From positions 1-28,087 of IMG/VR virus record IMGVR_UViG_3300030060_006363: 28,087 bases of DNA. The stretch is one strand, 5' to 3'. This DNA comes from a virus. This document shows, in pieces, positions 2,222 to 4,424 of the stretch (position 1 is its first letter; every line of letters starts with the position of its first letter). The translations under genes were made by a program, and so were the position numbers. The notes beneath the pieces are model-generated. The model did not search any database. It saw nothing but the letters and a program-made list of their open reading frames with translations, and was not told where the DNA came from.

Positions 2222-2689
2222 ATGAAAAATTATAAATACAACGATGGCGGAAGAAAAGAAGCAGGATTTAAAGGCGAGGCAAGAGATTGTGTTTGTCGAG
2301 CAATAGTTATAGCGTCAGGAAGACCTTATCAAGAAGTGTATGATAGGTTAGCTGAAGGCAATGCTTCTCAAAGACGTAGCAAACATCAAAAAACTAAACT
2401 GCCTAAATCTGCTCAAAATGGAATTGATGTTTGGAGAAAATGGTTTAAAGATTACATGAAAGAGCTTGGATTTGAGTGGACGGCTACAATGCAAATTGGT
2501 TCGGGATGCAAGGTTCATCTTAAATCAGATGAGCTACCGAAAGGCCGATTAGTGTGTGTGGTGTCAAGGCATTATGTTTCTGTTATTGATGGAGTCATTA
2601 ACGATACTCACGATTGTTCCAGAGAAGGAACACGATGCGTCTATGGGTATTGGAAACTAAAAGACTCTGTTACTTCTGCAACGAGCTGA
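2222..2689 (+). CDS. Possible papain-like cysteine protease, 155 aa
   Basis: The protein begins with MKNYKYNDGGRKEAGFKG, then a Cys-containing helix start (RDCVCRAIVIASGRPYQEVY; C23 likely nucleophile, C25 alternative). It ends with a His strand (SRHYVSVIDG, H117) and a polar turn (INDTHD, N127/D128/D131). Cys on an N-terminal helix, then His and Asn/Asp on late strands, is the papain-like order. I remember similar DCVxRAI...HYV proteins as unassigned genes of many phages; the protease call is inference. It has its own promoter, leader and terminator, so it is a one-gene unit. ATG 2222 has AAAGGA upstream with a rather long spacing (about 11 nt). Its 3' end overlaps the convergent nuclease gene by 20 nt. 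Confidence 0.55.
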   Translation: MKNYKYNDGGRKEAGFKGEARDCVCRAIVIASGRPYQEVYDRLAEGNASQRRSKHQKTKLPKSAQNGIDVWRKWFKDYMKELGFEWTATMQIGSGCKVHLKSDELPKGRLVCVVSRHYVSVIDGVINDTHDCSREGTRCVYGYWKLKDSVTSATS

Positions 2690-3140
2690 ATATCTTTTCC
2701 CAATCAATGTAAGGATATTCAAAGAACCCACCGAGGGGCTGAAGATTCAGCCCCTCTTTTTTTACGTCTAAAACTTGGGAAGCGTGGTACAGGTAGATAG
2801 AATCTGTTGCGTCCTCGACCATGATCCATGAGCGAGTGTCTTTGTTTTTTTGCAGGAAAGACACTTGATGCGGAGACAGGCGAATACTTCGGGTTGAGGT
2901 AATCTTAAGTTCAATAAAGTGAAAGTGGTATTCAGGGCAACGAACAAGCAAATCGGGAATACCTCTGGTGGCATAGGTATCAAGCTTTAAAACATCCCAT
3001 TTAGGAAGCCTCCACAGATTGCTCCTAATCTTTTGGTAAAACTTCTTCTCCGTTCTTTTGATTTTCTTTTTCGTAATCTTCAGGGTTGGCTTGGTGTTCG
3101 ATGACGATGGGCTCTGGATGATCTCCTCGAGTGTTTTCAT
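2670..3140 (-). CDS. VRR-NUC / PD-(D/E)XK nuclease, 156 aa
   Basis: The catalytic core is readable: a helix (KRTEKKFYQKIRSNL, about 29-42), then RGIPDLLV with D63, then FHFIELKI with E77 and K79, then LSPHQVSFL with Q92. This G-I-P-D ... E-L-K ... Q order is the VRR-NUC type of PD-(D/E)XK nuclease, a fold used on branched or flapped DNA; in phages it is a likely Holliday-junction or flap nuclease. ATG 3140 has AAAGGA 8 nt upstream. This start makes the gene overlap the small terminase gene by 116 nt in a different frame; the N-terminal 25 residues before the domain are low-complexity, so a later start cannot be excluded. The neighbouring terminase gene suggests a role in clearing branches before packaging. 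Confidence 0.85.
   Translation of the reverse strand: MKTLEEIIQSPSSSNTKPTLKITKKKIKRTEKKFYQKIRSNLWRLPKWDVLKLDTYATRGIPDLLVRCPEYHFHFIELKITSTRSIRLSPHQVSFLQKNKDTRSWIMVEDATDSIYLYHASQVLDVKKEGLNLQPLGGFFEYPYIDWEKIFSSLQK
2733..2763 (+). terminator. Intrinsic terminator inside the opposite-strand nuclease gene
   Basis: GAGGGGCTG (2733-2741) pairs with CAGCCCCTC (2748-2756), and seven T follow (2757-2763). It is oriented to end plus-strand transcripts from the gene at 2222. The same bases encode residues of the VRR-NUC-like gene on the minus strand. Confidence 0.85.
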
Positions 3141-3612
3141 TTCGTATTTCCTTTAACCTTTTTAAAACTTCATCTTTTGACATCTGGTCTATTGATCCGT
3201 GAAGAATTTCTTTTCTATCAATGTACAGTCCTTGAGCTTGGCCCCTTCGATACTCAGCCTGAACAGAGGCCGAGTAAGCTCCATTTTCTTCTGCTCTTCT
3301 GGATAAATCGTCTAATCTTTTAATGTGACGGTTATATGTGACGGCATATTTACGATCAAGTTCGGTTCGATATGTTTGCAGGGCACGAACAACATGAGGA
3401 CTTTTGTAAGGGTTTAATAGTTCTGATGCACGAACATGGGCAGACCCTTTTGCATATCCTGCCTCAATTGCGGCCTCGGTATTGGTAATCTCTCCGTCCC
3501 GTGACACAAGGGCTTTGACAAACTTTTCTTCCTTTCGTGTCAATTGTTTACTGACACGTTTCTGGTAGGCTTTGTCATTTGGGTCAAGAGTAAGTAAAGC
3601 TTTAACTGGCAT
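3025..3612 (-). CDS. terS: Terminase small subunit, 195 aa
   Basis: Residues about 20-70 match the Terminase_2-type small subunit DNA-binding domain: LTRKEEKFVKALV, TNTEAAIEAGYAKGSAHVR, ASELLNPYKSPHVVRAL. This protein recognises the packaging start site and recruits the large subunit. Then follows a charged helical region (about 70-160) typical of the oligomerisation part, and an acidic C-terminus (EDYEKENQKNGEEVLPKD). ATG 3612 has no clear SD; the sequence just upstream is AAGATATATCCGAT. A terminator hairpin ends 17 nt before the start codon, so expression probably needs read-through or antitermination (see the leader). The large subunit is not in the window. Confidence 0.85.
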   Translation of the reverse strand: MPVKALLTLDPNDKAYQKRVSKQLTRKEEKFVKALVSRDGEITNTEAAIEAGYAKGSAHVRASELLNPYKSPHVVRALQTYRTELDRKYAVTYNRHIKRLDDLSRRAEENGAYSASVQAEYRRGQAQGLYIDRKEILHGSIDQMSKDEVLKRLKEIRNENTRGDHPEPIVIEHQANPEDYEKENQKNGEEVLPKD

Positions 3613-3628
3613 ATCGGATATATCTTAT

Positions 3629-3665
3629 AAAAAAGACCCCTGACTTTCAATAAAAAAGTCAGGGG
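3629..3665 (-). terminator. Intrinsic terminator just upstream of terS
   Basis: On the minus strand an 11-bp stem (CCCCTGACTTT, 3665-3655, with AAAGTCAGGGG, 3647-3637) closes a 7-nt loop and is followed by TCTTTTTT. On the plus strand no T-run follows, so the direction is minus. It ends just before the terS start (3612), the position of an attenuator. Confidence 0.85.
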
Positions 3666-3797
3666 CAAGGTAAAGGACGTACTATGAGTACATGTCGTGA
3701 TCCAAGGGGTGAGGAGAGCCAAATGTGAACCCCTTAGACTATAGCCTCACGACAGGCTGTTGTTCCACTTTCACATTCGGCTGTTCTGTTCAATATC
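3666..3797 (-). ncRNA. Structured leader RNA / small RNA upstream of terS
   Basis: Read on the minus strand, three long pairings can be seen. Stem A pairs AGCCGAATGTGAA (3782-3770) with TTCACATTTGGCT (3729-3717), 13 pairs with one G-U. Stem B pairs AAGGGGT (3735-3729) with ACCCCTT (3710-3704). Stem C pairs TGTCGTGA (3754-3747) with TCACGACA (3700-3693) and encloses B. The 3' arm of A lies in the loop of B while its 5' arm lies outside C, so A with B/C forms a pseudoknot. Small hairpins AGCCT/AGGCT (3758-3743) and GTACT/AGTAC (3691-3679) are also possible. Stem A has an A-C mismatch on the plus strand but a G-U pair on the minus strand, supporting minus-strand transcription. A promoter lies upstream and a terminator downstream. 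It may be an attenuator leader of terS or a free RNA of about 165 nt. Confidence 0.6.
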
Positions 3798-3801
3798 CTA
3801 T

Positions 3802-3830
3802 ATTGTAAGATATAACTACATATGTTACAA
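3802..3830 (-). promoter_or_regulatory. Sigma70-like promoter for the terS leader
   Basis: On the minus strand TTGTAA (3830-3825, 4 of 6 consensus bases) is followed after exactly 17 nt by TACAAT (3807-3802, 5 of 6). The predicted start at about 3796 lies directly before the structured region. The surrounding DNA is AT-rich, so chance matches are possible. Confidence 0.5.
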
Positions 3831-3863
3831 GATATAATTATATTTTACAGGGGATTTTTAAAC

Positions 3864-4424
3864 ATGATGTCATATATGGTTACATATCACACTTTAAACG
3901 AGGAAGGAACAGAAGAGGAGAGAATATTTACGTTTTCGTCAGGTAATTTTCTTGATTTTTTTATGATTATAAATTCGGAATGTGCCAGAAAAGGGATTAA
4001 ATCGGTGCAAGATGTTGTTTCTATTGAAGAAATTGGAGAAAAAAGGGAAAAACTTGACAGGAACTCGATAATAGATCAGGCTAAAAACTTAATAAACGGA
4101 GAAAGAGAGACAACATATGGAGATCCTCTTGTAGCCCATGGGCATATTGCGAAGGGATGGAGTGCCATTCTCGGAGTAGAAAAAATCCCTCCCTCGACAG
4201 TCGCCCTGATGATGGCTTGGCTGAAAATTTCCAGAATTTTATCCAATAAAAAACATGAGGACTCTTACGCTGATGCAATTGGCTATATGGCGTTGTCTGC
4301 GGAATGTGCGGAGAAAGAAGATGGATATGAAAAAAAAGCGTTTAGCGTTCAGGAAAAAACGTCTCCAGAATTTGGAGAGGGTGAGAAGCAAAACGGAACA
4401 GACATTAACGAGGAATCCGAATGA
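3864..4424 (+). CDS. DUF6378-like phage protein, 186 aa
   Basis: The C-terminal half holds the recognisable part: IIDQAKNLINGERETTYGDP, then AHGHIAKGWSAILG, then TVALMMAWLKISRIL and HEDSYADAIGYMALSAE. This ER..TYGDP ... KI.R ... D...D..GY series is the DUF6378 pattern, an all-helical phage domain of unknown role, vaguely MazG-like in its helical acidic layout. The N-terminal 60 residues look like a separate small beta-rich part. ATG 3864 is chosen over in-frame ATG 3822 because AGGGGA (3849-3854) lies 9 nt upstream; ATG 3867 and 3876 are also in frame. It opens the second small-gene operon. Confidence 0.7.
   Translation: MMSYMVTYHTLNEEGTEEERIFTFSSGNFLDFFMIINSECARKGIKSVQDVVSIEEIGEKREKLDRNSIIDQAKNLINGERETTYGDPLVAHGHIAKGWSAILGVEKIPPSTVALMMAWLKISRILSNKKHEDSYADAIGYMALSAECAEKEDGYEKKAFSVQEKTSPEFGEGEKQNGTDINEESE

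Follow-up and report, generated by a model that had tools for sequence, protein, structure and literature searches.

A minus-strand pseudoknotted RNA precedes the small terminase gene in one clade of uncultured phages

The locus upstream of terS

The window analysed here is a 28-kb virus record (IMGVR_UViG_3300030060_006363, coordinates 1-28,087), whose nearest relatives by PolA (about 47-51% identity) and TerS (27-49%) are phage DSL-LC04, HTVC023P-type pelagiphages and psg01. On its minus strand lies the gene for the terminase small subunit, terS, with its ATG at 3612, followed by a nuclease ORF whose start codon falls within terS; a homolog of the nuclease in another contig (L020) matches PF08774 under the cutoff (E 0.0025). 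Upstream of terS, and sharing its strand, are the replication genes polA, helicase and primase. In contrast to several neighbouring genes, terS has no Shine-Dalgarno sequence. Between terS and a set of divergent genes lies a compact unit comprising a predicted promoter, a structured RNA core of about 95 nt and a terminator:

3802-3830, minus strand: sigma70-like promoter, TTGTAA-17-TACAAT, with a predicted start near 3796-3793
3770-3782, minus strand: P1 5' arm, AGCCGAAUGUGAA; four double-compensated and four one-sided pairs across relatives, P(random) 0.0012
3743-3758, minus strand: P2 hairpin, AGCCU-GUCGUG-AGGCU; the stem is the same in every member
3747-3754, minus strand: PK2 5' strand, UGUCGUGA, made up of the P2 loop and its closing pair; one double change (U-A to C-G)
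3729-3738, minus strand: PK1 5' strand, UCUAAGGGGU; one double and three one-sided changes with every pair kept, P(random) 0.0025
3717-3729, minus strand: P1 3' arm, UUCACAUUUGGCU; U3729 is able to join either P1 or PK1
3711-3716, minus strand: single-stranded linker CUCCUC between P1 and PK1, invariant in all members
3701-3710, minus strand: PK1 3' strand, ACCCCUUGGA, pairing with 3738-3729
3693-3700, minus strand: PK2 3' strand, UCACGACA, pairing with the P2 loop
3678-3692, minus strand: P3 hairpin, UGUAC-UCAUA-GUACG; one one-sided change, U-G to C-G
3636-3666, minus strand: intrinsic terminator hairpin, then U6 (3634-3629); stem kept through substitutions, including in sister phages without the core, P(random) 0.005
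3025-3612, minus strand: terS, terminase small subunit, 195 aa; phrog_51 E 1.6e-11, PF03592 above cutoff
2670-3140, minus strand: nuclease, PD-(D/E)xK / VRR-NUC-like, 156 aa; alignment shows a G-PD...ELK motif

The core, located between the promoter (3830-3802) and the strong terminator (3666-3636), is an H-type pseudoknot (P1/PK1) carrying a hairpin whose loop forms a second pseudoknot. P1, called stem A in a preliminary description of this DNA, comprises 13 continuous pairs (3782-3770 with 3729-3717) that include one G-U on the minus strand, and, as that description held, only on this strand is the stem unbroken. PK1 (its stem B, 9-10 bp) crosses P1, with no linker between the PK1 5' strand and the P1 3' arm, and PK2 (6-8 bp) is a second crossing helix that pairs 3754-3747 in and around the 5-bp hairpin P2 with 3700-3693. 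P1 and P2 read nearly alike on the opposite strand. From 5' to 3' along the minus strand, the order is P1 5', P2, PK1 5', P1 3', CUCCUC, PK1 3', PK2 3', P3, terminator, U6, 16 nt and the terS ATG, the 16-nt spacing being shared by members with terS directly behind. Three segments are strictly conserved, namely AACAACAGCCU, CUCCUC and GGAUCACG. The terminator has the conserved GC-rich hairpin and U run of an intrinsic terminator. The roughly 130-nt stretch of long nested and crossing pairings with a terminator before terS, as first described, is found at 3830-3613 on the minus strand.

The sigma70-like promoter of the preliminary description, TTGTAA-17-TACAAT, is present at 3830-3802. Consensus matches of this kind by themselves are not above chance (6 found vs 7.0 expected), and the site has an aligned counterpart in L003, L004, L006, L009 and L010, that is, in relatives with and without the RNA core. 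A further promoter-like sequence, TTGAAA-17-TAAGAT (3650-3622, minus strand), overlaps the terminator and would start a terS mRNA 2-4 nt before the ATG; the pattern occurs 10 times in the window, no more often than chance predicts (9.3 expected). Because the genes on the far side are divergent, transcripts reaching terS must either cross the leader terminator or start inside it.

Several other elements were seen nearby. The divergent promoter region at 3803-3837 contains a dyad, TTGTAA-N17-TTACAA, that is promoter-like on either strand and is not kept in L004. The plus-strand gene at 3822-4424 is a DUF6378 (PF19905) gene whose listed start at 3822 is probably wrong; an ATG at 3864 is preceded by CAGGGG. 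At 2733-2756 on the plus strand, a ten-pair hairpin resembling a terminator falls within the nuclease ORF, towards its 3' end and at the convergent end. When TATAAGATATATCC and TTGAAA-17-TAAGAT were considered as late-promoter motifs shared among genes, no convincing set of sites emerged, and a match of UUGGAUCAC to the 16S rRNA 3' end was judged to be chance.

Covariation and strand of the fold

Chance tests on the window bear differently on the parts of the leader. The whole leader folds at z = -4.6, mainly owing to the terminator, and the core by itself, taken as a nested fold, is unremarkable (z = -1.0); the crossing helix pair is more unusual, its length being reached in 6 of 3000 dinucleotide shuffles. 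Stronger evidence comes from comparison with relatives.

TerS homologs and pattern scans yielded a comparison set of four more distinct viral sequences (L003, L004/L005, L006/L007 and L008), with the L008 core identical to that of L004. Covariation in related phages, the check set beforehand, turned out in favour of the structure: double-compensated changes occur in P1 (four) and in PK1, PK2 and the terminator (one each), and every one-sided change leaves a G-U pair when the minus strand is read, where the opposite strand would have A-C. Between the window and L004, P1 retains 12 of 13 pairs despite five substitutions per arm (random expectation 0.0012), PK1 all 10 despite three plus two substitutions (0.0025) and the terminator all 12 (0.005). 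PK2 keeps six of eight pairs, which is not significant alone (P(random) 0.24), its two outer pairs being absent from the L004 group.

When all helices of at least 5 bp that the four distinct sequences have in common are listed without bias, the terminator, P1 and PK1 come first, and PK2 is among the few other listed helices that carry a double-compensated pair. Sliding the partner by 1-3 columns lowers the share of paired cells from 91% to 33-42%; the count is conservative, because both the P3 shift and an insert of 2 nt in L003 are wrongly placed by MAFFT. Core identity between the window and L004 is 70%, below the 76% of terS third positions, indicating that pairing is kept while the sequence drifts. 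As expected of a structured non-coding RNA, then, helices on one strand are kept by compensatory change, through few independent events, since the handful of distinct sequences falls into two main lineages. For this number of sequences the structure is well supported, and the observation of a pseudoknotted structured RNA on the minus strand before terS is confirmed.

Distribution among phages

All members for which PolA is available fall into a single clade of a PolA tree (support 97/98), with L009, L378, L379 and L380 as its supported sister clade. Alignment of sister-clade upstream regions (L009, L010) shows that the core is absent while the promoter-like block, a CGTCC..AACTT segment and the terminator are kept; TerS of these core-less phages is 81% identical. 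Core presence and absence between the sister clades is one gain or one loss, in either direction. Since terS occurs in the sister clade with no core before it, terS expression in those phages does not depend on the core, and the clade's retention of the promoter-like block and covarying terminator implies selection on this layout independently of the core. The L008 phage has gained a methyltransferase-like ORF directly behind the terminator, an insertion that left promoter, RNA and terminator intact. This ORF (L062:6240-6878, weak PF05175 match) separates terS from the leader terminator and begins just behind ATATATCCGAT.

A covariance model, R1, run over about 3.7 Mb of loci scored members at 116-142 bits, the elements' own opposite strands at no more than 25 bits and non-members at no more than 20 bits, and it found nothing beyond known members in these loci and none outside the one supported clade. 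Six loose-to-strict DNA patterns over viral contigs retrieved just known members and chance matches, as did, among the matches listed, one DNA pattern over genome contigs; no second copy of the RNA was found elsewhere in the searched contigs. A loose topology descriptor over 3 Mb was useless, giving 1515 matches. An INPHARED DNA search gave no match among 50,697 phage records, and such an RNA was not found in DSL-LC04, HTVC023P, HTVC027P or psg01, all of which have terS. The preliminary description had recognized no known RNA class; scanning the window and related loci with Rfam 15 bears this out, with no matches at the gathering threshold and sub-threshold matches only (window and L004). Literature searches on terminase-linked pseudoknotted noncoding RNA turned up nothing relevant. 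As far as the collections searched show, the RNA is undescribed and confined to one small clade of uncultured phages. Sequence comparison shows the fold, its strand, the terminator and the clade distribution.

Two other structures were seen upstream of other terS genes. Pelagiphage HTVC023P has a gap of about 550 nt before terS (L384:3441-3730), where repeats that can fold occur but do not resemble the RNA of the window, and a hairpin of high stability on either strand (z about -7.6) lies at L020:4521-4650, about 350 nt upstream of the terS relative there.

Possible function of the RNA and comparison with known systems

Our best explanation, held tentatively and at a little under an even chance, is that the terS-nuclease operon carries a structured leader RNA peculiar to this clade, combining termination, read-through and a core that sets the read-through fraction. 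Host RNA polymerase would start at the promoter near 3796, and the core of P1 and P2 would form and be locked by the two pseudoknots. Polymerase would mostly stop at the terminator, at about 3630, releasing a stable short RNA of about 165 nt, and the fraction reading through would supply terS and the downstream nuclease. Start, termination and read-through are all steps that we infer. Our guess is that the pseudoknotted core most likely sets the fraction through protein or polymerase binding, not by pairing anew with the arms of the terminator, and an additional role of the short RNA in trans is conceivable. Covariation in P1, PK1, PK2 and the terminator, one-sided changes that are all minus-strand G-U, the terminator 16 nt before terS, the divergent genes on the other side, the promoter-like block and terminator kept by sister phages and the unit left intact by the L008 insertion argue for this leader reading. 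Against it stand terS without the core in the sister clade, the few independent changes and the TTGAAA-17-TAAGAT sequence inside the terminator (3650-3622), which could drive terS without read-through.

That embedded sequence underlies the main rival, in which terS is expressed from it as a near-leaderless mRNA and the RNA is an independent, free-standing phage small RNA acting in trans on host or phage targets, with terS merely lying behind. We consider this quite possible, though on the doubtful side. The complete promoter-RNA-terminator unit and the strictly conserved segments AACAACAGCCU, CUCCUC and GGAUCACG fit such an RNA, as does a terS that lacks a Shine-Dalgarno sequence behind a promoter-like site 2-4 nt upstream. 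However, no second copy occurs in the contigs searched, and the core-less sister clade keeps the promoter-like block and terminator, which an orphaned small-RNA gene need not do. The same retention of the terminator would suit an insulator that blocks minus-strand transcription from the polA side, where polA, helicase and primase are encoded in the same orientation as terS, with terS again driven by the embedded promoter and the core an unrelated passenger. The promoter-like TTGAAA recurs in L009/L010, but the embedded pattern occurs at chance level, and we regard this account as improbable. Two further readings draw on the proximity to packaging genes. An RNA working in the DNA-packaging motor like phi29 pRNA would explain why the element adjoins terS and is of the same order of size; this role, part of the preliminary description, is most unlikely, because close sister phages with 81% identical TerS do without the core, whereas a phi29-type packaging RNA would be needed wherever the same motor is used. 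Packaging sites are often found within or close to terS, so inverted repeats of a DNA-level cos or pac site might also be considered; to this we assign next to no probability, as the conserved helices have non-Watson-Crick pairs that are G-U when one strand is read, and helices that cross suit RNA, not duplex DNA.

The preliminary description had further proposed a riboswitch or attenuator in which stem B alternates between PK1 and the terminator arms. The alternative pairings are physically possible in the window, yet they are weaker and only partly conserved. PK1 plus terminator amounts to about -35.5 kcal/mol in the window, versus -20.6 for the two alternative helices, and to -32.1 versus -14.4 kcal/mol in L004, so that native pairings win by about 15-18 kcal/mol. 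All four sequences allow the PK1 3' strand to pair with the 3' arm of the terminator (CCCUUGG/UCRGGGG), but this pairing must displace a local hairpin that has already closed. The 5'-arm pairing, the one that would prevent termination in time, falls from -10.5 in the window to -5.4 in L004 and is not conserved. The mutually exclusive, conserved antiterminator pairing of a competing-fold attenuator is thus lacking. Given a far stronger native fold and an unconserved 5'-arm pairing, we reject the switch as a likely mechanism and think it very unlikely. The core may have a ligand- or protein-dependent effect. One bolder version of the leader reading, rather unlikely in our estimate, is that a compact double pseudoknot with no competing pairing directly controls polymerase passage of a packaging-gene terminator, which would make it a new phage RNA class, a pseudoknot-type antiterminator.

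The non-coding portion of phage genomes is poorly charted, and the RNA is an undescribed, covariation-supported addition to it; as a leader it points to control of terS by early termination. A sister clade lacking just the core provides a natural deletion control, which makes function testable with two short constructs.

Known systems resemble the element in part. Like phi29 pRNA, it is a phage-encoded structured RNA with a positional link to packaging; the two have no structural relation, phi29 is not known to have a TerS/TerL pair and the window's RNA is absent from sister phages. The lambda pR'-tR' (6S RNA) late leader has the same order of promoter, short non-coding RNA, terminator and phage genes; it uses the protein Q and a DNA site, and the RNA structure differs. 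The manA and wcaG motifs of marine phages are likewise structured leader candidates found by comparing marine metagenomes and phages (PMC2864571), with other genes and other folds, and Rfam gave no match here. HK022 put RNA, of about 70 nt with two stem-loops, is a nascent phage RNA that acts on polymerase just behind its promoter and lets it pass terminators (PMC9378689). The text of that paper describes no pseudoknot, and the window's RNA has two, plus an adjacent terminator, in place of a two stem-loop fold; by analogy, put is a precedent with a different fold and a model for how the core could act. Similar in layout is IsrK of Gifsy-1, a small RNA of a prophage, from whose promoter a read-through mRNA is made as well (PMC4825925). 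Its fold and downstream genes differ from the terS and nuclease arrangement of this phage, and the likeness is one of layout: a phage-encoded short RNA with its own promoter and terminator and, by analogy, a precedent for a single promoter serving both a short transcript and, by read-through, the mRNA of the phage genes behind it.
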